A program made the translations under genes and the position numbers. A stretch of DNA of 50,470 nt from a virus, in IMG/VR virus record IMGVR_UViG_3300020123_000124, positions 1-50,470 of that record; one strand, given 5' to 3'. Positions 33,595-50,470 of this stretch are shown piece after piece. Below the pieces are notes generated by a model. That model did no database searches, was not told the DNA's origin, and saw only the letters and a program-made list of their open reading frames with translations. The stretch's first letter is position 1, and every line of letters begins with the position of its first letter.

Positions 33595-34893
33595 ATGGCC
33601 TGGACAGCCGAACGCTCAACAATCAACCAGACCTTACAATTCGGGCTTGAGACCACCCCAGGCGTCAACGTCCCGGCCAACAAAAGCATCCAGTGCTTTG
33701 CCGTCACCTTTGGGCCAATGGCCGATGTGACCGAGTTTAGTGCCACGGGCCGCAAATACCCGAGTATCCTGATTGAGAATAGCGAGTGGGTCGAGGGGAC
33801 GCTCACCGGCTCGCTTGACTATAACGGCATCGTCTACGCGCTGGCCGGGGTCTGTGGCGCACCCACCATCGGCGCGCATGGCGCGTCAGCCACGGCGAAA
33901 GATTGGCTCTTCGTCCCACCCTTAACCGGGAGTGTGCAGCCCCAAACCTTCACCATTGAGCAAGGTGAAAACAACTCGTTTGGTAACGCCATCTGGAACC
34001 ACAAGGTCAACTACGGCCTGATCAGTGAGTTTGGCTACAAGGGCGACCGCAAATCGGGCTTTAACGTCTCCGGTAAGGTGCTGGCCCAGGCACTGCAACG
34101 CGCCATCACTATGACAGCTTCGCCGACCACGGTCGCCATCCAGCCATCGGCAGGCAAGCACTTCAATATCTACCTGGACTCAACCAGCGCCGCACTCGGC
34201 ACGACGCAACTGTTGAAGTACCTGGATGTTGATTTTGCCTTTACCGGTCTGTATGGGATGTTCTTTCCCTTGAACCGTGCTAATCTTGGATGGGCGGCAC
34301 ACGTCGATCTCAACCCTGGCTGCACGATCAAGATACTGATGGAAGCTGATGCCACCGGTATGACGCCGCTCACCTACCTGCAAGCAGGTACCACGAATTT
34401 CCTGCGCATACAAGGCCAGGGGGCCATCATCGACAATATCCATACGCTCACCTTCGGCGGTGGCGTCACCGGTGGGACGTTCACCCTCTCCTATAAGGGG
34501 TTGACCACTGCGCCAATCACCTATGCCGTTGGCCTGACCGCAGCAACGATAAACACGGCCTTCCAACTGCTCACGACTGTCGGCGCAAACTGTACGGTGA
34601 CAGGTTCAGCAGGCGGGCCATACACCTTTACCTTCTCAGGGCCACTCGCCTCGGATATGTCGCCGGTGACTGTGACGAATGTCAGCCTCTCAGGTGGCAC
34701 ACCGACCGTAACACTCGTCGCCACGGCATACGCCACGTTCCAACATGACATGGCCGTCAAAGTCAGCAAGCCCAACCCGTTCAGCGATAAGGACGGCGTG
34801 TTTGCCGAGGAATGGGAGTTCACCATTGTGGAGGATGCGACCTGGGGCGCCGCGCAGAAGTTCTTGATAACAACGCTTTTAACAGCATTATAG
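33595..34893 (+). CDS. Major tail tube protein with inserted beta domain (432 aa)
   Basis: ATG 33595 follows AAGGAG. The core is a tail-tube fold (QFGLETTPGVNVPANKSIQC, EGTLTGSLDYNGIVYALAG, then MAVKVSKPNPFSDKDGVFAE and EWEFTIVEDATW at the end). Residues about 285-378 are an extra Thr/Gly-rich beta domain (TFGGGVTGGTFTLSYKGLTT, TVTGSAGGPYTFTFSGPL) placed in a surface loop near the C-terminus, as Ig-like decorations often are. The stop codon overlaps the 3' end of the reverse tRNA-like gene. Confidence 0.85.
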   Translation: MAWTAERSTINQTLQFGLETTPGVNVPANKSIQCFAVTFGPMADVTEFSATGRKYPSILIENSEWVEGTLTGSLDYNGIVYALAGVCGAPTIGAHGASATAKDWLFVPPLTGSVQPQTFTIEQGENNSFGNAIWNHKVNYGLISEFGYKGDRKSGFNVSGKVLAQALQRAITMTASPTTVAIQPSAGKHFNIYLDSTSAALGTTQLLKYLDVDFAFTGLYGMFFPLNRANLGWAAHVDLNPGCTIKILMEADATGMTPLTYLQAGTTNFLRIQGQGAIIDNIHTLTFGGGVTGGTFTLSYKGLTTAPITYAVGLTAATINTAFQLLTTVGANCTVTGSAGGPYTFTFSGPLASDMSPVTVTNVSLSGGTPTVTLVATAYATFQHDMAVKVSKPNPFSDKDGVFAEEWEFTIVEDATWGAAQKFLITTLLTAL

Positions 34894-34962
34894 CCCTGGC
34901 CGGATTTGAACCGACACCCTACCCGCCTACAGGTGGGTGCTCTACCGTTAAGCTACAGGGCT
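34891..34962 (-). tRNA. tRNA-like gene, atypical anticodon arm
   Basis: Reads as a 72-base cloverleaf: 7-bp acceptor (AGCCCTG/CAGGGCT), D stem GCTT/GAGC with AACGGTA loop, and T stem GTCGG/CCGGC with a TTCAAAT loop. The anticodon arm is irregular. CCCAC/GCGGG (one A-C mismatch) leaves a 6-base loop CTGTAG, while the alternative ACCCA/CGGGT leaves 8 bases CCTGTAGG. The anticodon would be GTA or TGT. D, T and ASL sequences most resemble tRNA-Thr(TGT) with a base missing. No CCA is encoded. A promoter ends seven bases before its 5' end. It may be a degenerate or a specialised tRNA. Confidence 0.75.
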
Positions 34963-34968
34963 AGAACA

Positions 34969-36700: not shown

Positions 36701-39244
36701 ATTCCTATCGTAGCAAGCCAACTCGTCGCACAAGTCTCAGTTCAAGGTGCTCAGGCCGCGCAGGGCCAGTTGTTAGGCGTGGGCCAGGCGGCTGATGCAG
36801 CGGAGGCGCGTTTCCGTTCGCTGGCCGTGATCGGTTCGGGGCTGCTGGTGGCAGCCCTGATTGCCGTGGGAGTCATCTCGACCAAAATGGCGGCCGACTT
36901 CCAGCAAGGGGTCAATCGCCTCAAGACCGGCGCCGGTGATGCGACTGATAGCTTCTCAACCCTCGCCGGTGGTATCCTCAAGGTATCGGTAGCAACTGGC
37001 CTGATGTCAGGGCCGCTCACCAAGGCCATGTATGAAATCCTCTCAAGTGGGCAGCGCGGTGCACAAGCCTTTGATACGCTCTCCGCAGCCGCCAAGGGCG
37101 CCGTAATCGAACAAGCCAATGTGGTCGACGTGTCCGATACCTTAGCCGGTGCCATGACCAATTTCGGCACGAAGACCTTTGGCGCGGTGGCCTACATGAA
37201 CGGCCTGATCACGGCAGTCTCAAGAGGGCGCATCACTTTGCAAGACCTCTCAACGGCGATGGGGCCAATCGAGCCAGTGGCGCACGCCATGGGCATCTCC
37301 TTTGCCGACCTCTCTGCTGCCATGAGCACTCAAACCAATGCCGCCATACCGGCGGCCAGGGCTGCGACGGGGCTGCGCTTCATGATGCAAGCCCTGGAAG
37401 TTCCGACGACCAAGGCCAGCAAAGCCATGCAAAAGTGGGGACTCGATACCGTGGCGGTGGCCGATGAGATGAAGGTCAGTCTACCTGGCGCTCTGCAAAT
37501 GATCTATGACGCCGCCAAGAAAGCAGGGCCAGAGGGTTCGGTGCCTTTCGATCGGGCAGTGTCCGATATGGTTGGCGGTCAGCGCAGCCTCGGCGCCTTT
37601 TTGGCACTCACCGGCAGCCACATGAAAGATTTCGCGGCCAATTCTGCGGCCATAGCAGCCTCCATGAGAACCGGCGCAGGTGAGGTAGCAGGGTGGGCTT
37701 TAGCGCAGACGAACTTTAATGTGATCATGGACCGGGCGAAGGCGGCGATTGCGTCGGCGGCTATTGGCCTGGGCCTGCTGCTCCTGCCTGCTCTGGGGCG
37801 TATCGTGGGCATCATTCCGCAAGTCGTGGACTACGTCACCAACTTCTCAGCACATGCCAATGTGCTCGTCCCCATCCTGGCGGGCGTGGCTGCCATCATT
37901 GCGGGCTTCCTGGTTCCGGCAGTCATCGCACTCGCGGCGGGTGTGATTGCCGCCACCTGGCCGGTGCTCGCCATCGGCGCGGCGGTGGCGGGCCTGGTCG
38001 CCATCTTCATGCACTGGTATTCGACGAATGCAGGCTTCAAGGCGTTCATCGACACTCTGGTGAACGGGTTCAGAACGCTGTGGTCGCTCATCCAAGCCAA
38101 TTTCATGCCCACGATGCAGAGGTTAGGGGCTTTCTTCCAATCGACGATCTTACCCGTCTTGCAGCAGGTCGGGAGTTTTATTATCGGCACCTTCAAGCCA
38201 GCCTGGGATCAGCTTGTCACCACCTGGAAACAAAATCTGTTGCCTGGGCTTCAAATGCTGTGGGGCTTGTTCCAACAACTCCTGCCTGTCCTGAAAGTGG
38301 TGGGGATTGTGCTGCTGGCCAGTGTGGTTCTCCCGATGGCGGCGGTGATTGCCATTGTGGTTGTCGCAGGGGTGGCTATCATGAAATTCGTCGCACTGCT
38401 CATCCAGGGTTGGGGCTTGCTGGTCTCGTTTGCGGGCGCCGCTTTCTCGGCTATCGGGACGACCATCACGAATTTCAAGAATCTGGTCGGCAACACCTTC
38501 AATGCCATCGGGACGTTCATCCATGACAAAATTCTCTGGATTTACAACCATAATGTCTATGTCAAGGCGTTCGTCGATCTGATCGTCAACGAGTTCCACC
38601 TGCTGCAAAATATCGTTGGTACCGTCTTCGCGACCATCGCCGCGCTCATCGGGCAAAAACTGGCCCAGGCGCAGGCATTCGTCGCGACCTTTGTGAATGT
38701 ACTCGGTGGGCAATTCAGTCAACTTGGCTCATCCATCCAATCGAAAGTCAGCGCCATCGGCTCCTGGATTGCCAGTACCATCGGCGGGTGGGCCAATGCC
38801 GCCTACCAATGGGGCGCGAACCTCATCGGGAGCTTTATCAACGGCATCTGGAGCATGATCGGGGGCGTGATCTCGGCTGCCCAAAATGTCATGGGACAGG
38901 TGGCCAATATTCTTGGCTTCCACTCGCCCGCCAAAGAAGGGCCAGGTAAGGATGCTGACACCTGGGCGCCCAACCTCATGAAGATGTACACGCAGGGGCT
39001 CGTCGCCGCCCTTCCGAACATGCAAGCCGCGCTTAATACCTTGATGATACCGGTCGGGAATATGCTCTCCGGGCAGAGTCCAACACTGTCGGCACCGATG
39101 AGAGCACCGGCACCTGGCGCGAGTTCGCAGGCCTCGTCCTCACCGATCAATGTCAATGTCTACCTTGCAGGCGCTCCTGTGGCGAAGGCACTCATGCCGC
39201 ATATCGCCCAACAAATCCGCACGGCGACAGGAGCGAAGTTCTGA
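36701..39244 (+). CDS. Tape measure protein, probable AUU start (847 aa)
   Basis: The open frame runs upstream of the first usual start (TTG 36770) to ATT 36701, five bases after GGAGGT. The added residues PIVASQLVAQVSVQGAQAAQ look like a typical tape-measure N-terminus. The body has a phage tail tape measure core (AMTNFGTKTFGAVAYMNGLI, SRGRITLQDLSTAMGPIEPV), hydrophobic stretches (about 330-410, 510-560) and a C-terminal FHSPAKEGPGKDADTW. It sets tail length and may aid DNA entry. TGATG overlap links it to the next gene. Confidence 0.85.
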   Translation: MPIVASQLVAQVSVQGAQAAQGQLLGVGQAADAAEARFRSLAVIGSGLLVAALIAVGVISTKMAADFQQGVNRLKTGAGDATDSFSTLAGGILKVSVATGLMSGPLTKAMYEILSSGQRGAQAFDTLSAAAKGAVIEQANVVDVSDTLAGAMTNFGTKTFGAVAYMNGLITAVSRGRITLQDLSTAMGPIEPVAHAMGISFADLSAAMSTQTNAAIPAARAATGLRFMMQALEVPTTKASKAMQKWGLDTVAVADEMKVSLPGALQMIYDAAKKAGPEGSVPFDRAVSDMVGGQRSLGAFLALTGSHMKDFAANSAAIAASMRTGAGEVAGWALAQTNFNVIMDRAKAAIASAAIGLGLLLLPALGRIVGIIPQVVDYVTNFSAHANVLVPILAGVAAIIAGFLVPAVIALAAGVIAATWPVLAIGAAVAGLVAIFMHWYSTNAGFKAFIDTLVNGFRTLWSLIQANFMPTMQRLGAFFQSTILPVLQQVGSFIIGTFKPAWDQLVTTWKQNLLPGLQMLWGLFQQLLPVLKVVGIVLLASVVLPMAAVIAIVVVAGVAIMKFVALLIQGWGLLVSFAGAAFSAIGTTITNFKNLVGNTFNAIGTFIHDKILWIYNHNVYVKAFVDLIVNEFHLLQNIVGTVFATIAALIGQKLAQAQAFVATFVNVLGGQFSQLGSSIQSKVSAIGSWIASTIGGWANAAYQWGANLIGSFINGIWSMIGGVISAAQNVMGQVANILGFHSPAKEGPGKDADTWAPNLMKMYTQGLVAALPNMQAALNTLMIPVGNMLSGQSPTLSAPMRAPAPGASSQASSSPINVNVYLAGAPVAKALMPHIAQQIRTATGAKF

Positions 39245-41559
39245 TGAGCTATCAATCGACGGTGCTTGCAGACAATCCTATACGGTACTACCGCCTCGGC
39301 GAGTCCTCAGGAACAGTGGTCAATGACCTGGGCAGCCAGGCGCAGAACGGGACGCGCGTCGGCAGTGGCATTACCCTTGCGCAAACAGGACTTGTGAGTA
39401 GTGATACCGATACCTCCTATGCATGGAACGGGACAGCCGATAGTTACCTCACCTGCCCCAATGCGAGCATCACGACAGGCTCATTTACGCTAGAAGCATG
39501 GGTGTACCTGGCAGGGGCCGGAACGGTCGGGTCGGGAACCTATGCGGAGATTTTCGGCATAGGGTCGGGTGGCACGGCGCGCCTCCTTTTTGCGACAGCC
39601 GCCGGAACGCTGTTGACTCAGCAGGGTGGGAACTATGTTTCTACCACCGTCTTATCGTTGAATGCCAGACATCACATCGTCCTGGTCTGGGATGGCACAC
39701 ACGAAAGTTACTGGATAGATGGGATTCAGGACTCCACCTTTACGCCGTCGGGCGCACCAACGTGGAGCGGTGCCTTTCAGATTGGATCGGACATCGGCAA
39801 CTACTGCTGGAATGGACGCATCGACGAAGTAGCCATCTACAATACCGCGCTCACCCAGGCCAAAATTAGCAAGCATTATAACGTCGGGAGTGGACGAACG
39901 TCGGCAGGCGGGCAGGTCTTTCCTCTCAATAATATCTGGAATAGACGCATCGACAATTTGCCAATCCATGCCAGTTCCGCTACCTGGATCAGTAATAGCG
40001 GCACAGCGCTGCAAGCGAATTTCAATGCACTCGGGGGTATTCCCGTGAACACCTCGACCAGTACTGACGCGCTGGTATCAGTGACGTTTACGACCTTCCC
40101 GGCGGAAAGCGATCCAGGGCCGTATCGTATCCCGCTTAATGCCGCGATTGAAGCAGCGGGTGACGCGCATTGCCTGTGTTACGACACCTCGAATAACATC
40201 CTGTATGAGTTGTACGGGGCATCTGCCGGTGGAAGTAGTTGGACGGCCTCCAATGGGGCAAAATGGGATTTATCCTCCAATGCGCTGCGTACCGAAGGAT
40301 GGACGAGCGCCGACGCTGCCGGCCTGCCGGTTGCGCCCGGCCTTGTGCAGTATGACGAAATCTACACGGCTGGCGTCATCAACCACGCGATCCGCATTGT
40401 GCTACCCGGAACCGTGGGGCATATCTGGCCTTCTACGCACACAGCAGGGCCGCAACCGGCAAACTCCCCTCCGCTAGGGGCGCGTCTTCGCCTCAAGGCG
40501 AGCTATAACATCAGCGGCTTTAGCGCAGGTGAACAGGTACTTTACCGATGCCTACAGCAATACGGGGCGTTTGTGGCCGATAACAGCGCAGGGACGACGG
40601 CGGTCGTGCAGGGTGCCACCGATGGACGCTGGGTCGGCACGCCGTTTAATGGCGGCTTGTCTGGTATGCCTGCGCTCTCCAACTTCGAGTATGTTGATGA
40701 ATCTGCTGTGATGCTCTCCAGCACGAGTGCCGCAGTCATCGCGCTTCTCCAATCAGCAACGGGCAGCGTCGGCGGTTCCAATGCCAACAGCGTCACCGTC
40801 ACCACCGCCGCGACCGGCAGCGGGAACCTGCTCGTCGCCTTTGTCATGGTGCAAGGAAGTGCCGTCACCATCACGCCGCCCGCCAACTGGACGCAGGTTG
40901 GCGCAACGCAAGGCATAAGCGGCGGTACTGGCTCCGTTGCCATGTTCGAGCGACAAAACAGCGCGTCGGGCGTGACCTCTCATATTTTCTCTTTTAGCGC
41001 ATCCTGCAACGCGGCGGTGGCCTTTGAAGAGTGGAGCGGCGTGGCGACCTCAAATGCGCTCGATCAGCAAGTCGCAAAGCAGAACGCGAAAAGCGCCACA
41101 TCGGCCACAGGCACAACAGCGGCGCTTGCCGGATCGGGCGAACTGGCTATCTGGGGCTTAGGCGTCCCTGCGACGGGCGTCCTGACCTATAGCGGCATCA
41201 CGAACAGCTATGTAGAGGATACGAGCGCGAACGCCACTTCTTCAGAGACGACGAGAGCGCAGGCCACGCTGTTCTACAATGCCAGCGTGGGCAGTGCCGC
41301 CACCAGTTCAGGGGCCACGATGTCAGGCACCGGCGGCGCTGGCAACACGACCATCCTCGGCGTGTTCAGGGCTGCTGGGGCCGGTACCTCACTCTCAGGC
41401 ACACTTGCCGGTGTCGGCCAGCTTTCCGCGACACTGACCACACCTGGCGCGCACCTCTCAGGTGAGTGTGACGGGGTCGGCACGCTTACAGCCTCGCTCT
41501 CTCTTCCCATGAAGCCGCCCGGCACCTATACCATCGTGATTGGAGGGCTGATTCTCTAA
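39244..41559 (+). CDS. LamG-domain tail tip protein (771 aa)
   Basis: Residues 1-215 are a LamG-type lectin domain (YYRLGESSGTVVNDLGSQAQ; FTLEAWVYLAGAG; WNGRIDEVAIYN). Residues about 225-490 match a module seen in secreted bacterial proteins: FPLNNIWNRRIDNLPIHASS, GDAHCLCYDTSNNILYELYG, EGWTSADAAGLPVAPGLVQY. Residues about 500-715 form a second beta-rich, Ser/Thr-rich lectin-like domain. The last 50 residues hold two AGVG-type repeats shared with the fibre at 48824. A role in receptor or polysaccharide contact is likely. Confidence 0.8.
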   Translation: MSYQSTVLADNPIRYYRLGESSGTVVNDLGSQAQNGTRVGSGITLAQTGLVSSDTDTSYAWNGTADSYLTCPNASITTGSFTLEAWVYLAGAGTVGSGTYAEIFGIGSGGTARLLFATAAGTLLTQQGGNYVSTTVLSLNARHHIVLVWDGTHESYWIDGIQDSTFTPSGAPTWSGAFQIGSDIGNYCWNGRIDEVAIYNTALTQAKISKHYNVGSGRTSAGGQVFPLNNIWNRRIDNLPIHASSATWISNSGTALQANFNALGGIPVNTSTSTDALVSVTFTTFPAESDPGPYRIPLNAAIEAAGDAHCLCYDTSNNILYELYGASAGGSSWTASNGAKWDLSSNALRTEGWTSADAAGLPVAPGLVQYDEIYTAGVINHAIRIVLPGTVGHIWPSTHTAGPQPANSPPLGARLRLKASYNISGFSAGEQVLYRCLQQYGAFVADNSAGTTAVVQGATDGRWVGTPFNGGLSGMPALSNFEYVDESAVMLSSTSAAVIALLQSATGSVGGSNANSVTVTTAATGSGNLLVAFVMVQGSAVTITPPANWTQVGATQGISGGTGSVAMFERQNSASGVTSHIFSFSASCNAAVAFEEWSGVATSNALDQQVAKQNAKSATSATGTTAALAGSGELAIWGLGVPATGVLTYSGITNSYVEDTSANATSSETTRAQATLFYNASVGSAATSSGATMSGTGGAGNTTILGVFRAAGAGTSLSGTLAGVGQLSATLTTPGAHLSGECDGVGTLTASLSLPMKPPGTYTIVIGGLIL

Positions 41560-44500
41560 TGGCATTACGTTCAAATCCCTACGGCGTCACCACGGCGCTG
41601 CGTACCGCGAAAAAGAAAATTGACCCGCAGTTGATCACGGATTTCGTGACCCTGGGCCTGGGGTGGGTACGCATCATGATCTTGTGGACAAGCATCGAAC
41701 TCAGCCCTGGCGTCTATGACCCAGGCGCGCTTGATGTGCTCGACGATGCCGTCAATCGCTGCACCAATGCGGGCCTGCATGTGCAATTCCCCATCCAGCA
41801 GGCACCCGCCTGGCACCTGGTCGCCGCCGACTGCGACCCGTCGAGCAATACCCATCATATGATGGACCCAACGGCGGCGGCGACCTTTGCCTCCTTCCTG
41901 TCAAACCGCTATAACGGCGTGACGAACATACCTGGGTACGGGCCGCTCACCATCGACGCCTTCGAGGTCGGCAACGAGGAGTTTGATGTCTATTTCTGCC
42001 AGGGGCAACCTGTGACCGTCGCGGGTCAGACGTGCCGCACACCCAACTGGTTCATCCCCGTCTTGAAAGCCGTCTCGCCCGTTATACGCGCCAACGCGCC
42101 CAATGCGCTCGTCGGTATGTGTGCCTTGTGGTGGCAGTACAGCCCACACCGCACAAGTTTCATGCAAGCCCTGTATGACAATGGCTGCAAAAATTTGTTC
42201 GATTATGCCAACGCGCATATGTACACCAGCCCGGTTGCGCCCGGCACGAACACCAGTTCTACCCAACTCTCGATGACGGGGCAGATCAACGAAATCTATA
42301 ACGTGATGGCCGCCAATGGGGATGGCAACAAGAACATCTGGATCACGGAATGGGGCGTGCCTGTCCCGACCGATATGAGCGACGCGGCGCGCGTGACCTA
42401 CTACAATGCGGCCTTCGATATCATGCGCACATCAGGTCACGTCGGGGTCACGGATTTCTACACCATGAACTACACTGACCCGTTAGTGAATGCCGCCACG
42501 CAGACCTTCTCGCTCACGCAATTCAACGCCCCGCACTATACGGCCACGTTTACCGGCGTGCAGAACTACATCGCGGCCCACCCCACCTGGCCATCGGGTG
42601 GCGGCGGCGGCGGCGGTGGTGGCGGTGGGAGTGTCGTCGTGCCGCACGTCTGCGTCGTGGCGCTTGAAAACCACTCATACAATGACTCGACCGCCAAATA
42701 CGTGCTCGGTAATCCCAACTTCCCGCATGTGAACGCGCTCGCCACCGCCAACGGCTATGCCACGCATTTCGATGGGCTGACGCATCCTTCCCTGGGCAAC
42801 TATATCGGCTTCGCCTGTGGTGACACGCATGGCATCGTCACCGATACGGTCAACCCGGCAACCAACCCGATTGCCGGGAATACTCTGGTTGATAGCCTGG
42901 CGGCGGCGAATATCGCCTGGAAACACTATGCCGAAAATCTGCCCTCAACCGGCTACTTGGGCGGTGACTCGGGCGGCTATGTGCAGCACCATAACCCGTG
43001 GGTCTACTTCACGAGCGTACGCGGGAGTTCTGCGCAAAATGGCAATATCGTCAATTATAGCGATGCATCGGTAGGGCTGGCACACGACCTGAACAACGGC
43101 GTCGCGCCACCGTTCTTCTTTGTGCAGCCCAACAATACCAATAACGGGCATTCAGGAACGGATACGCAGTGCGACAACTGGGTCAATACGTTTGTCACCC
43201 TCGTACAGGCCTCGAGCTGGTACACGCTCAATAACGGGCAGATCGTCTTGTGGTGGGACGAAAGCAACCCCGATACCGATACGGCTGGCATCGGCGATGC
43301 GACACCAGGCGGCGGGCATTGCATGTTCATCGTGATCAACGCGCAAAACAGCGGCGCCACCTACACGACGAACGTCAATACGTATGGCTTTCTCAAGGCG
43401 CTGGAAGAGTTGTACAGTCTGCCACAACTAGGCAATAGCGCGCATACCACCAACGGCGACCCCTCCGCGCTGTTCGAGGCGGCGCCGGCCTCCGCGATTG
43501 CGGCCAGTCAGACCGCGCTCTCGTATGCCGGGGTCGCGGGAGACGCAGCGCCGACCGCGCAAACGGACACGATCAGCAATAGCGGCGGGAGCGCAGCCGC
43601 CTATACCACCGCTTCCTCACAAAGCTGGCTGACCGTGTCGCCCACGTCCGGCACCATTGCCGCCAATAGCAGCATCATCTCAACCATCAGCGCATCGCCC
43701 ACGAGCCTGTCGGCCGGCACCTATAGCGGCACGATCACGTATACGGGGCCTGCTAACGCGGTCGTCGTCACCGTAACCTTCACCGTCTCCGCGACGGCGT
43801 CGAACCTCCAAATCACCGCCTCGCCGCTCGCGCTCGTCTTCAGTGACGTCATCGGCGGGTCTGACCCAGCGACGCAAAGCCTGACTCTCATCAATGTCAA
43901 TAGTAGTGATGCAAGTTACAGCATCACCAGTTCGGCCTCCTGGCTGTCCGTCTCCCCAGGCGTCGGGGTCGTACCGGCGGGTGGCACCACGCCCCTCACC
44001 GTCAGCGTCACAAGTGGGGGCTTATCAACAGGCTTCTATAGCGGCGTGCTCACCTATGTCACATCAGGCGGTACTGGCGTGGTCGGCGCCTCGTTCGCAG
44101 TCACGACGGATGCAAGCCATTTAGCTATCGCAGGCACCTTGCAGATCAATAACACCATCGGCAAGCGTTCCACGGCCAGTTTTAGCGCGCTCACCGATAC
44201 GAGCCTGCATTTTCAGCAGTACCAGCAGGTGCAGATATACGACCCGAAGAACGTGCTGGTCTTTAGCGGCTATGTCTTCGATGCGCCGGCGCATCAGCCA
44301 GGCTTCCAGAATACCCTCGTTCACGAGATCACCTGCATTGACCAGCACTACCTGGCAGATAAGCGCATCGTGGCGCAACTCTACCGCAACAATACCTGCG
44401 GCTTCATCGTCAATGACATCATCTCAAATATCCTCTCACAAGAAGGCGTGACGGTGGGACTGGTGGCTCTTGGGGCCACCATACCGGTCGCCAACTTCGG

Positions 44501-45566
44501 CTACTGCACCGTCTCTGACGCGCTGGACGCGCTCGTGCAGGCGGCGAGCGCATCAGGTATTCCCCACTACTGGCAAATCAACCCGGACAAGAGCCTGGAT
44601 TTCGTGCCATACACGGCGATTGTCGGGCCGACGGTAGACGGAACAACCATTGATGATGGTCGAGCGTCAGGCGTCGTGCCGAAAGTCTCACCCGGTAATA
44701 TCAAGTATCGCAACACGCAGTATGCCGTGGGGGGCGTAGCGCAGACGCCTTTAAACGATGAGACGGTGCAAGGCGACGGGCAGACACGCGCCTTTCCCTT
44801 CAAGTATGACCTTGCTCAAGCGCCCTCACTCTTCCAACTCAACGGCGTCACCAAGACGCTCGGCACCAAAGGGCAGACCGGCTTTCAATACTACTGGGCG
44901 CAAGGCGACAAGGTCATCGCGCAGGATAGCAGTCAAACCATCCTCGTCTCGACTGATCGCTTGCACATGCAATACATCGGGCAGTACCCATCCGTGTTTA
45001 CCGCGCAAAACGCGGCGCAGGTCGCGGCGCAGGCGGCGCTCGACGGCTCATCAGGCATCAATGAAGCGGTGCTCGAAGACAAGACCATCGCCAATGCCAA
45101 TGATGGCAATGCGAAGACCAATCAACAACTCACGCAGTACGGGATACCAGGCGAACGCTTCCAGTTTGCAACCCTGGATGCGGGGTATGCGGCCGGGCAA
45201 CTGATCACCGTTATCTACCCACCGCTTGGCTTTGGCACGATCGCTACCTTCACGACTAACTCGTATGTGCCGCGCGCCTTTGGCAGCACGCTCCTCAATG
45301 TGCCAATCCAGAACACCGTCATAAGCGGAGCCGTGCAGATGCTGGTGGAAGAGGTGGACACCAGCGACCAGGCCGATAGCAACAATATGTGGAATACGGT
45401 CAATGCCGTGGTGGGGCCATATGACACGACCTGGGTTGAGTTCTTCGGCAATCTCTTTAACAAGCCGACGACCATCGCCAATTCAATCAGCCTGGGTGTG
45501 ACGCTCAACGTGCCACTGGCGCCGTCAACCACCCTGGCACCGTCAACCACCCTGGCGCCAGGCTAG
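41559..45566 (+). CDS. Multidomain tail protein: glycosidase-like + phosphoesterase + hub (1335 aa)
   Basis: Four regions are visible. (1) Residues 1-345: clan-A glycosidase-like barrel with acid/base GNE (138-140) and nucleophile E264 in ITEWGVPV. (2) A poly-Gly linker (about 348-358), then a phosphoesterase of the acid phosphatase/phospholipase C family: VVALENHSYND, HPSLGNYIGF, HHNPWVYF, and D567-E568 in LWWDES. (3) Residues about 655-850: two BACON-like beta sandwiches (SWLTVSPTSGTI; SWLSVSPGVGVV). (4) Residues 860-1335: tail-hub or Gp37-like region. It probably digests surface polymer and wall phosphate during entry. Confidence 0.8.
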   Translation: MALRSNPYGVTTALRTAKKKIDPQLITDFVTLGLGWVRIMILWTSIELSPGVYDPGALDVLDDAVNRCTNAGLHVQFPIQQAPAWHLVAADCDPSSNTHHMMDPTAAATFASFLSNRYNGVTNIPGYGPLTIDAFEVGNEEFDVYFCQGQPVTVAGQTCRTPNWFIPVLKAVSPVIRANAPNALVGMCALWWQYSPHRTSFMQALYDNGCKNLFDYANAHMYTSPVAPGTNTSSTQLSMTGQINEIYNVMAANGDGNKNIWITEWGVPVPTDMSDAARVTYYNAAFDIMRTSGHVGVTDFYTMNYTDPLVNAATQTFSLTQFNAPHYTATFTGVQNYIAAHPTWPSGGGGGGGGGGGSVVVPHVCVVALENHSYNDSTAKYVLGNPNFPHVNALATANGYATHFDGLTHPSLGNYIGFACGDTHGIVTDTVNPATNPIAGNTLVDSLAAANIAWKHYAENLPSTGYLGGDSGGYVQHHNPWVYFTSVRGSSAQNGNIVNYSDASVGLAHDLNNGVAPPFFFVQPNNTNNGHSGTDTQCDNWVNTFVTLVQASSWYTLNNGQIVLWWDESNPDTDTAGIGDATPGGGHCMFIVINAQNSGATYTTNVNTYGFLKALEELYSLPQLGNSAHTTNGDPSALFEAAPASAIAASQTALSYAGVAGDAAPTAQTDTISNSGGSAAAYTTASSQSWLTVSPTSGTIAANSSIISTISASPTSLSAGTYSGTITYTGPANAVVVTVTFTVSATASNLQITASPLALVFSDVIGGSDPATQSLTLINVNSSDASYSITSSASWLSVSPGVGVVPAGGTTPLTVSVTSGGLSTGFYSGVLTYVTSGGTGVVGASFAVTTDASHLAIAGTLQINNTIGKRSTASFSALTDTSLHFQQYQQVQIYDPKNVLVFSGYVFDAPAHQPGFQNTLVHEITCIDQHYLADKRIVAQLYRNNTCGFIVNDIISNILSQEGVTVGLVALGATIPVANFGYCTVSDALDALVQAASASGIPHYWQINPDKSLDFVPYTAIVGPTVDGTTIDDGRASGVVPKVSPGNIKYRNTQYAVGGVAQTPLNDETVQGDGQTRAFPFKYDLAQAPSLFQLNGVTKTLGTKGQTGFQYYWAQGDKVIAQDSSQTILVSTDRLHMQYIGQYPSVFTAQNAAQVAAQAALDGSSGINEAVLEDKTIANANDGNAKTNQQLTQYGIPGERFQFATLDAGYAAGQLITVIYPPLGFGTIATFTTNSYVPRAFGSTLLNVPIQNTVISGAVQMLVEEVDTSDQADSNNMWNTVNAVVGPYDTTWVEFFGNLFNKPTTIANSISLGVTLNVPLAPSTTLAPSTTLAPG

Positions 45567-47252: not shown

Positions 47253-48044
47253 ATGAAAAAGATGAGTCAAGAGATCGAGTTGAAGATTGTTCAACTGTAT
47301 CAAGATGGAGCGCGTCCAACGTATATTGCGAAAGACCTGAATGTAAGTGAAAACACAGTTCAGAGGGTGCTTGACAGAAATGGAATAGCCCGACGTGGCC
47401 CTGTACAGCGTCGGATGAAGCCTCATCTACAGGCCAGCATTTGCGAAAGGTATGCAGCGGGAGAAAGCGTCAAACTTTTAGCAAAGGATTTTGATGTATC
47501 AGTCTTCACTATAAGGGATATCGTGAAATCAAATGGTGGAGAAATCAATCCTAGAGGACAGCAATACAGGAGGTTTACTAACGATGAGCTTGAAACTATG
47601 AGACAAATGCGCGATCAAGGAGCTAGCCAGACGGCTATTGCGACAACTCTCAACACAAGCCAAATCGTTGTTAGCCGTGTCATGAAAGAAAATGGGATAG
47701 TACCCAATCAGGTTGGACATGCCACAGGTTCGAAACATGCTTCATGGAGAGGCGGGAGACATATTACTCAGAGTGGTTACTATGAGATATGGCTTGACCC
47801 GAAAGACCCAATGGCTCCATTTATGCGTAATCGTATGGGCTACGTGCTTGAACATCGCTTAGTCCTGGCAAGAAAGTTAGGCAGACCCTTGAAGAAATCT
47901 GAGACTGTTCATCATATCAATGGAGATAAGTTGGATAATCGCTCAGAAAACCTACAGTTACGACAAGGAAGGCATGGCAATGGTGAAGTCTATTGCTGTG
48001 CTGACTGTGGTTCACGAAATATTGTGCAATGTGAAATCGAGTAG
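47253..48044 (+). CDS. HNH endonuclease with HTH modules (263 aa)
   Basis: ATG 47253 is behind AGGAGG. Three helix-turn-helix-like segments of the homeodomain/resolvase type (IVQLYQDGARPTYIAKDLNV, CERYAAGESVKLLAKDFDV, RQMRDQGASQTAIATTLNTS) cover residues 8-145. An HNH_3 nuclease follows (YVLEHRLVLARKLGRPLKKS, TVHHINGDKLDNRSENLQLR), then a terminal CADCGSRNI...C ribbon. Freestanding homing nuclease inserted in the fibre operon on the coding strand. Confidence 0.9.
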   Translation: MKKMSQEIELKIVQLYQDGARPTYIAKDLNVSENTVQRVLDRNGIARRGPVQRRMKPHLQASICERYAAGESVKLLAKDFDVSVFTIRDIVKSNGGEINPRGQQYRRFTNDELETMRQMRDQGASQTAIATTLNTSQIVVSRVMKENGIVPNQVGHATGSKHASWRGGRHITQSGYYEIWLDPKDPMAPFMRNRMGYVLEHRLVLARKLGRPLKKSETVHHINGDKLDNRSENLQLRQGRHGNGEVYCCADCGSRNIVQCEIE

Positions 48045-48823: not shown

Positions 48824-50470
48824 ATGAGCTATCAAAGCACTATCCTTGCTGACAGCCCTATCCGGTACTACCGTCTCGGTGAGTCATCCGGGACGGTAGC
48901 GACTGATATCGGGAGCCAGGTGCAAAACGGCACGCTCTCCGGCACGATCACGCTCTCGCAACCAGGCTTGCTTGTTGGTGACGCGAATACTTCTATGCTT
49001 TTCGGCGGCGGCTCTATCGCGCTCCCCACGACGGGGATGCCAACGAACGCAGTTCCCTGGTCAGCAGAAGCATGGGTAACGCTGACCGCTGCCGACTCCG
49101 TGTACCGGTCTGTCCTGACATTTGGCACGTTTACAGGCACTCCGCATTCTGGTATACGGTTTGACTACGGTGGCGGGTTCGGGAATGCCTTTGCTCTCAC
49201 AAATGTCAATTACTCCTTTAGTATCCTGAGTGGCGCCCTGACTGCTGGCACCACGTATCATCTGGTGGGAACCTATGACGGGACGACGGTAACATTCTTT
49301 GTGAATGGGACATCTGTTGGAACGCAGGTCGTCACCCTTACGCTTGGAACTGCTCTTTGCAACATAGGCACAAACGAGGCAGGCAACGCCTGGGCTGGTG
49401 TCATTGACGAGGTCTCCTTTTACAGCACAACGCTCTCAACCGGGCAAGTCGCCGCGCACTACACGGCTGGCACAACAGCCCCTGTCATCCTGACACCGCG
49501 TTTCATCGGGCGTGCATTGGGTGCAACCATCATTCCTGAGCCGATCAAACAGCCGCTCCCCTATATCAGGCGTGCGTTCGGCTCAACCATTATCTACGAG
49601 AACCGGACGTTTGTCCCGCGTGCGTTGGGTGGGGTCTACATGCCTGATACGGTGATGTGGGTGCCGCGCGCACTGGTCAGCACAGAGCAATTCGCGCTCT
49701 TGCGTAGCCTCACGCTTGCAGGCGTTGGGACACTCACGCCAACGCTTTCAGCAAATACCGCGCTCAGTAGTACCCTCGCGGGCGTCGGCACACTTGCAGA
49801 AACGTTGACGCTGGCTACCGCGCTTTCTGATACCCTCGCGGGCGTCGGCACACTCACCGGGACGCTCACCCTTGCGACAGCCCTCAGTACGACGATAGCA
49901 GGCGTTGGGACGCTTTCAGGAACGCTTTCAGCCAATACCGCACTCTCCACAACGGATGCAGGGGTAGGAACGCTCTCAGGAACACTGTCAGCGAACACGG
50001 CGCTTGCAGCGCAGCTTGCCGGTACAGGTACACTCACCGGATCACTTTTTGCGGTAAGTCAGCCACTTCCCTACATCGGGCGCGGGCTGCTTTCAACCAT
50101 CGTCTACGAGCAACGGACATTCATTCCGCGCGCCATAGCGGGAACCTACATTCCTGATACGATCTTGCCGGTGCCGCGTGCGCTGCTCAGTACGATACAG
50201 GCGACGGTCGGGCTTTCTTGCACGCTGGTCGGGGTTGGCACCCTCACAGGAGTCCTATCAGGTCCAGGAGTTCTTACATGTACGATGGCCGGGGTTGGAA
50301 CGCTCACCGAAACACTCTCACTGGCAACAAGCCTGACTGATACTCTGGCGGGCGTTGGCACCCTCACAGCGACGCTCTCACTTGCCACAGCCCTGACCGA
50401 AACGAATACAGGCATAGGCCAGCTTTCAGGTACCCTTGCAGCGAACACCGCCCTGAGTTTGAGTATGGCA
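48824..50470 (+). CDS. LamG-domain tail fibre/adhesin, 5' part (continues at 1-412)
   Basis: Open to the window end and continuous in frame with 1-412 once the 127-base overlap is merged, giving about 643 residues. It starts at ATG 48824 after AGGATAAGG. Residues 1-215 form a concanavalin A-like LamG domain, a carbohydrate-binding fold common in phage receptor-binding proteins. The start (MSYQSTILADSPIRYYRLGE) closely resembles that of the protein at 39244. Two copies of a module ending in PRAL..T and containing YE.RTF.PRA are then interleaved with 20-residue repeats of the type LAGVGTLTGTLSLATALS. It probably sits at the tail tip as a host-recognition fibre. The domain call is by sequence pattern and the adhesin role is inferred from position. 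Confidence 0.8.
   Translation, partial: MSYQSTILADSPIRYYRLGESSGTVATDIGSQVQNGTLSGTITLSQPGLLVGDANTSMLFGGGSIALPTTGMPTNAVPWSAEAWVTLTAADSVYRSVLTFGTFTGTPHSGIRFDYGGGFGNAFALTNVNYSFSILSGALTAGTTYHLVGTYDGTTVTFFVNGTSVGTQVVTLTLGTALCNIGTNEAGNAWAGVIDEVSFYSTTLSTGQVAAHYTAGTTAPVILTPRFIGRALGATIIPEPIKQPLPYIRRAFGSTIIYENRTFVPRALGGVYMPDTVMWVPRALVSTEQFALLRSLTLAGVGTLTPTLSANTALSSTLAGVGTLAETLTLATALSDTLAGVGTLTGTLTLATALSTTIAGVGTLSGTLSANTALSTTDAGVGTLSGTLSANTALAAQLAGTGTLTGSLFAVSQPLPYIGRGLLSTIVYEQRTFIPRAIAGTYIPDTILPVPRALLSTIQATVGLSCTLVGVGTLTGVLSGPGVLTCTMAGVGTLTETLSLATSLTDTLAGVGTLTATLSLATALTETNTGIGQLSGTLAANTALSLSMA
49715..50074 (+). repeat. 60-base tandem repeats, array 1 (in tail fibre)
   Basis: Six in-frame 60-base units begin at 49715, 49775, 49835, 49895, 49955 and 50015. 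Each encodes a 20-residue motif around AGVGTL.GTL...TALS. Units differ from each other by scattered substitutions, so this is a degenerate array. The glycine/threonine/alternating-hydrophobic pattern suits a repetitive beta-structured fibre shaft. Confidence 0.85.
50225..50470 (+). repeat. 60-base tandem repeats, array 2 (continues to about 300 at the window start)
   Basis: Units begin at 50225, 50285 and 50345 (the same as position 2), then at 62, 122, 182 and 242. They share the AGVGTL core with array 1. The two arrays are separated by a non-repeat module that itself resembles the segment before array 1, which implies duplication of a module-plus-repeats block. Confidence 0.8.
50344..50470. 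repeat. Terminal overlap, copy 2 (identical to 1-127)
   Basis: Exact second copy of bases 1-127. Removing one copy leaves about 50,343 unique bases. The overlap lies inside the 60-base repeat array of the tail-fibre gene. A repeat-induced false join is therefore conceivable, but the surrounding repeat units differ from each other and the frame is preserved. Confidence 0.95.

Follow-up and report, generated by a model that had tools for sequence, protein, structure and literature searches.

We analysed a stretch of viral DNA (the window: 50,470 nucleotides, positions 1 to 50,470 of IMG/VR record IMGVR_UViG_3300020123_000124) in which a single gene, at 41559..45566, encodes a 1335-residue protein that joins two predicted hydrolase domains to a predicted tail hub. 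This protein is likely the hub at the tail tip of a temperate siphovirus, with two envelope-polymer hydrolases loaded into its N-terminal slot. Enzyme-bearing tail hubs are known; what is new in this well-supported dual-enzyme tail hub is the unreported enzyme pair, its unusual N-terminal position, its traceable origin by insertion, and the recurrence of the pairing.

One reading frame encodes two predicted hydrolases and a predicted tail hub

The frame is open from 41559 to 45566, as a preliminary description made from the letters alone had reported, and the motifs named there are all present: GNE at residues 138-140, ITEW with E264, a poly-Gly stretch at 347-357, ENHSYND at 370-376, and WWDES at 565-569. 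The gene lies on the plus strand, as do the two genes upstream and the junction motifs described below. It encodes a PslG-like (GH39-type, clan A) glycosidase domain (41559..42593, residues 1-345), the poly-Gly linker (42597..42629, residues 347-357), a PF04185 phosphoesterase of the AcpA/phospholipase C (PLC) type (42639..43478, residues 361-640), two BACON sandwiches (43494..43790, residues ~646-744, and 43812..44096, residues ~752-846), and a gp27/Mu gp44-type tail-hub domain (44130..45563, residues 858-1335). Pfam matches, residue conservation, and the hub model agree that two intact-looking hydrolases of different classes sit on one tail-hub protein. The earlier labels of glycosidase-like, phosphoesterase, and hub regions held and could be narrowed to PslG-like (GH39), the AcpA/PLC branch of the alkaline-phosphatase superfamily, and a gp27/gp44-type hub, respectively, while the suspected BACON-like sandwiches were recovered as two stretches by Pfam BACON_2 (52.8 bits against a cut-off of 25).

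At the N-terminus, Pfam matched the glycosyl hydrolase core PF11790 (22.9 bits against a cut-off of 21). Homologues of this domain occur on bacterial and archaeal plasmids, where they are labelled as cellulase-family or disaggregatase-related proteins, and a profile built from the plasmid homologues and two phage sequences matched PslG (GH39) with an E value of 1.7e-36. A profile of viral sequences only also matched PslG (E value 3.6e-31); its next matches included GH39 xylosidases. In the profile comparison, the NE and TE motifs of the glycosidase align with the WNEPN and TEWG motifs of PslG; all eight viral sequences share E136, N139, E140, H220, Y222, and E264, and two of these residues, E140 and E264, are also kept in five bacterial or archaeal plasmid homologues. 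E140 (GNE) is the predicted acid/base and E264 (ITEW) the predicted nucleophile, and the domain is, by its sequence, a PslG-like retaining-type glycosidase with all of the expected catalytic residues kept. While the match to Pseudomonas aeruginosa PslG (5bx9/4zn2) extends across the barrel with both catalytic Glu residues aligned, PslG itself is a cellular enzyme without phage or tail context; it cuts an exopolysaccharide. Two further glycosidase-like sequences were observed in viral contigs. One, on an 82 kb contig (L088:6001-7614), is a PslG-like protein that stands alone (34% identical) and has a BACON-like sandwich at its C-terminus; the other (L021:4427-7357) is a different glycosidase-like domain, with a weak glycoside hydrolase profile match, which belongs not to the L021 hub but to a tail-fibre-like protein encoded downstream of it.

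The phosphoesterase domain passed the curated PF04185 cut-off by a wide margin (50.9 bits against 23, E value 1.7e-13), and a profile search with it matched AcpA (E value 8e-9). Its relatives across soil bacteria are "alkaline phosphatase family" proteins, the best of them 26-37% identical. The model of the domain, which had a predicted local distance difference test score (pLDDT) above 90 across most of its length, found as its nearest solved structures in Foldseek phospholipases C, a glycerophosphoethanolamine phosphodiesterase, and AcpA (PLC/AcpA E values 5.6e-11 to 8e-10), and E370, N371, H409, S411, N414, H478, H531, D539, D567, and E568 were identical in 30 of 30 aligned sequences. The domain is thus modelled with an alkaline-phosphatase-superfamily fold. 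It shares this fold and the motif residues with the AcpA/phospholipase C family, from which it differs in being a compact domain on a tail protein. Since the fusion protein had no PHROG match, the only significant structural relatives of the phosphoesterase among the BFVD viral models were giant-virus proteins, and no annotated phage record matched the domain, tail-associated phosphatase-superfamily enzymes appear to be undescribed in tailed phages.

The last 478 residues had no match in Pfam, PHROG, or PDB sequence searches. They are, however, homologous to 67 IMG/VR loci and 31% identical (E value 4e-44) to the protein encoded directly after the tape measure gene of the Methanosarcinales siphovirus vir515. 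An AlphaFold2 model of the region built from 50 sequences had a pLDDT of 85.7, and its Foldseek matches included 3cdd (the MuSo2 43 kDa tail protein; E value 1.7e-14, target-normalised template modelling score 0.67) as well as the HFTV1 tail, Mu gp44 (1wru), T4 gp27, and VgrG. The resemblance to siphovirus tail-hub proteins noticed in the preliminary description was therefore borne out by structure prediction, in which residues 858-1335 fold as a gp27/gp44-type hub. The gene order fits this placement in the tail: the tape measure gene (36770..39244) is followed by one adhesin gene (39244..41559), which encodes a LamG lectin-like domain and an adhesin segment (residues 502-771), and then by the hub gene.

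Several repeats were observed in and around the hub. An insertion of ~31 residues (45237..45329), a gap in the other alignment rows, contains a VPRAFGST repeat unit, six more copies of which occur, together with GVGTL repeats, in the LamG protein at 48824-50470, as if a small repeat were moving between tail genes. The C-termini of the window hub (45525-45560) and of the L009, L016, L017, and L018 hubs end in STTLxP/xTLYP-type repeats, which are also found in an internal hub loop of many relatives.

The enzyme part of the fusion is conserved and under purifying selection

The glycosidase-phosphoesterase-BACON part of the protein is 78-80% identical in an independent contig (L001). Comparing the two, the ratio of nonsynonymous to synonymous substitution rates (dN/dS) was 0.15 for the glycosidase, 0.22 for the phosphoesterase, and 0.36 for the available part of BACON sandwich 1, and both enzymes are under purifying selection. 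This conservation and the low ratios of the two enzymes indicate that the fusion architecture is not due to chance. The complete glycosidase-phosphoesterase-hub junction is present in one contig only, as would be the case if the fusion were an assembly chimaera or an annotation artefact. However, L001 repeats the order of glycosidase, poly-Gly linker, phosphoesterase, and BACON, its fusion gene likewise starts at TAATG, its upstream gene ends in the same way, and glycosidase/BACON or adhesin/BACON parts are fused to the hub in one frame in L015 and L014, making such an artefact very improbable.

Some observations nevertheless weigh against reading this protein as a dual-enzyme tail hub. The L001 contig stops before the hub, so that the exact enzyme-to-hub junction is seen in the window alone, and no Dit-like protein was identified between the tape measure and the hub. 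The glycosidase was modelled jointly with the phosphoesterase, and dropping fragment sequences that misaligned onto the phosphoesterase left just two aligned sequences covering the barrel; residues 1-345 were mostly modelled at a pLDDT below 60, so the active-site geometry of this domain rests on sequence. The phosphoesterase has D567-E568 where AcpA presumably has Asp-Asp, which makes it uncertain whether its chemistry is that of a mono- or a diesterase.

The enzymes occupy a variable slot N-terminal to the hub

Most relatives of the hub stand alone as proteins of ~480-620 amino acids with 14-53 residues ahead of the match, while in others 157-863 residues precede it. These longer N-termini hold LamG domains (L016, L021, L044, and L070), BACON domains (L014 and L015), or adhesin-like sequence (L004, L005, and L007). 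The enzymes of the window protein thus fill a slot ahead of the hub that related soil phages leave empty or use for a lectin, an adhesin, BACON, or another PslG-like domain. L015 is a close relative of the window phage (major tail protein 87% and hub 53% identical), yet its slot holds a PslG-like glycosidase (29% identical) and BACON but no phosphoesterase; because a close relative carries different cargo, the content of the slot seems to be exchanged far more quickly than the surrounding tail. This slot offers a concrete model for how hubs change their host-facing enzymes. A different kind of addition was observed in Ktedonobacteria-class prophages (L194:7364-11551 on the minus strand, and L192), whose homologous hub reaches 1395 amino acids because ~1000 adhesin/lectin-like residues lie inside the gp27-like fold, between model columns ~108 and 166-180.

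The junction with the upstream gene suggests how the slot was filled. Stand-alone hubs open with the motif YTVxIGG...SLxIxxxIGxRS, and in L004, L005, and L007 an adhesin, IGG (or IGS), and the hub are read in one frame. The adhesin segment of the upstream gene in the window is homologous to the N-terminal cargo of the L004 and L007 hubs, and this gene ends in YTIVIGGLIL (41527..41556; YTVVIGGLII in L001), following a GTYT(I/V)VIGGLI(L/I) pattern. The first-strand motif of the hub is therefore the end of the upstream gene, split from the hub by the cassette; the window hub picks up after the missing strand, and BACON sandwich 2 appears to occupy the place that this strand has in relatives. Since the upstream gene ends at the first-strand motif in both the window and L001, while L004, L005, and L007 keep the adhesin, IGG/IGS, and hub in one frame, the simplest reading is that an older adhesin-hub gene acquired a glycosidase-phosphoesterase-BACON cassette by insertion directly after the first strand of its hub. 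The insertion would have come with a new start codon at the TAATG stop/start overlap between the two genes (41557..41561), an arrangement also found in L001, and the first strand contributed by the upstream protein may still pair with the hub. A programmed frameshift joining the upstream and fusion genes was considered, since the frame is open for ~29 codons upstream, but no slippery heptamer was found by eye; the overlapping TAATG with a GGAGG ahead of the start (41542-41546) instead favours re-initiation.

The enzyme pair recurs in an unrelated phage

Both enzyme domains are rare within the scanned viral collection, yet they also occur together in L084, where a 993-amino acid protein consists of an N-terminal adhesin-like part, a phosphoesterase (54% identical), and a glycosidase (33% identical), the reverse of the order in the window. 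The 11 kb L084 contig carries terminase and portal genes of a phage unrelated to that of the window; no hub was detectable on it. Two domains this rare are unlikely to have come together in two architectures by chance; their pairing argues for a joint function and suggests, without proving it, a shared or adjacent substrate. This pairing was not found in cells, in that no glycosidase relative lay within ~3 kb of 80 bacterial phosphoesterase genes. From the recurrent pairing one would predict that poorly studied soil bacteria, perhaps Ktedonobacteria, have a glycan on their surface that bears phosphate, and the enzymes themselves could be a means of discovering it. In a bolder and only tentative version of this idea, the two domains would form an order-independent "phosphoglycan depolymerase" acting on one phosphorylated polymer, carried in a swappable hub slot as a cassette behind the first strand, with the strand from the upstream gene perhaps completing the hub in trans.

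Proposed function and alternative explanations

The hub may assemble as a trimer like its structural relatives, in which case the tail tip would be surrounded by three glycosidases and three phosphoesterases projecting on flexible linkers, the two BACON domains acting as spacers ahead of the hub. As the phage adsorbs, its glycosidase would break the main chain of a polysaccharide on the host surface, its phosphoesterase would take off or cleave phosphate substituents on the same polymer or on the layer beneath, and the tail could then reach the membrane. The teichoic-acid-like or phosphoglycan substrate put forward in the preliminary description was not supported and remains a guess, a phosphomonoester or a phospholipid being equally open.

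The two enzymes could also act on separate layers, with the glycosidase clearing exopolysaccharide or biofilm glycan, and the phosphoesterase assisting the entry of DNA by a PLC-like attack on membrane phospholipid or phospho-lipoglycan. Consistent with this possibility, the best solved fold matches of the phosphoesterase are phospholipases C, AcpA, and a glycerophosphoethanolamine phosphodiesterase, and the activity of PslG is on exopolysaccharide. In contrast, the linkage of the pair in two orders hints at a shared or adjacent substrate, and the phosphoesterase has as its cellular relatives small phosphatases of the secreted type, not full-length PLCs, so we give separate targets a lesser, though appreciable, chance. 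That the domains are receptor modules binding carbohydrate or phosphate without catalysis, like the lectin decorations of other hubs, would fit the LamG domains or adhesins that other family members carry in this slot; the invariant catalytic residues of both domains and their low dN/dS make this improbable.

In Tal proteins, the hub domain is N-terminal and the extension behind it is diverse, one example being the glycosidase of Listeria phage PSA (PMC7291167). Like them, the window protein joins a hydrolase to a gp27-type hub, and its gene lies downstream of that for the tape measure, but the extensions known so far mostly follow the hub, whereas here two enzymes precede it. The searches of the fusion protein revealed no peptidoglycan-hydrolase domain, and it thus lacks the C-terminal, peptidoglycan-active extension of a Tal. 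Partial precedents are lambda gpJ, whose hub domain is thought to begin near residue 185, and the "evolved Tals", which carry carbohydrate-binding modules within the hub fold (PMC7291167). Tail modules of enterococcal phages encode GDPD phosphodiesterases proposed to act on teichoic acid; these likewise place a phosphodiesterase on a baseplate or tail protein, but belong to the unrelated PF03009, form, in one architecture, the C-terminal part of a BppU-like protein, and have no fused glycosidase described (PMC10194240). No PF03009 match was found on the fusion protein by Pfam. Ectolysins of Gram-positive phages often have two catalytic domains (PMC9863714). In the open-access literature searched, we found no described example of a glycosidase, a phosphoesterase, and a hub combined, in agreement with the preliminary description, and no GH39 or alkaline-phosphatase-superfamily enzyme on a phage tail, although this is weak evidence of absence.

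The phage and its candidate host

The phage encodes an integrase, a portal, an S78 protease, an HK97-type capsid, and an Rv2525c-like putative lysin. Its capsid matched Chloroflexota prophages best (E value 2.7e-36, compared to 6.8e-22 and 2.3e-21 in two other phyla sampled), and the best genome, that of Ktedonobacteria bacterium brp13, harbours a syntenic prophage. Across the aligned parts, identity to this prophage was 42% for the terminase, 33% for the portal, 37% for the protease, 27% for the capsid, 35% for the hub, and 37% for the lysin. These similarities point to a Ktedonobacteria-like (Chloroflexota) host as a lead rather than as proof. Searching 85k genomes for the hub with short conserved peptides returned nothing, and the Ktedonobacteria prophages surfaced by profile only. 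The hub match to the Methanosarcinales virus and the "disaggregatase-related" protein of Methanomethylovorans, which resembles the glycosidase, suggested an archaeal host; this host is not favoured, because the terminase, portal, protease, capsid, and lysin match the Ktedonobacteria prophage.

Elsewhere in the window, an ARAGORN "tRNA-???" call at 34890-34963 was disregarded as unreliable. In the late structural region, 47253-48041 encodes helix-turn-helix units fused to an HNH endonuclease domain (64% identical in L004) and probably specifies a homing endonuclease. The Rv2525c-like glycoside-hydrolase-like protein encoded at 1529-2656, which is 70-78% identical in relatives, is probably the lysin.

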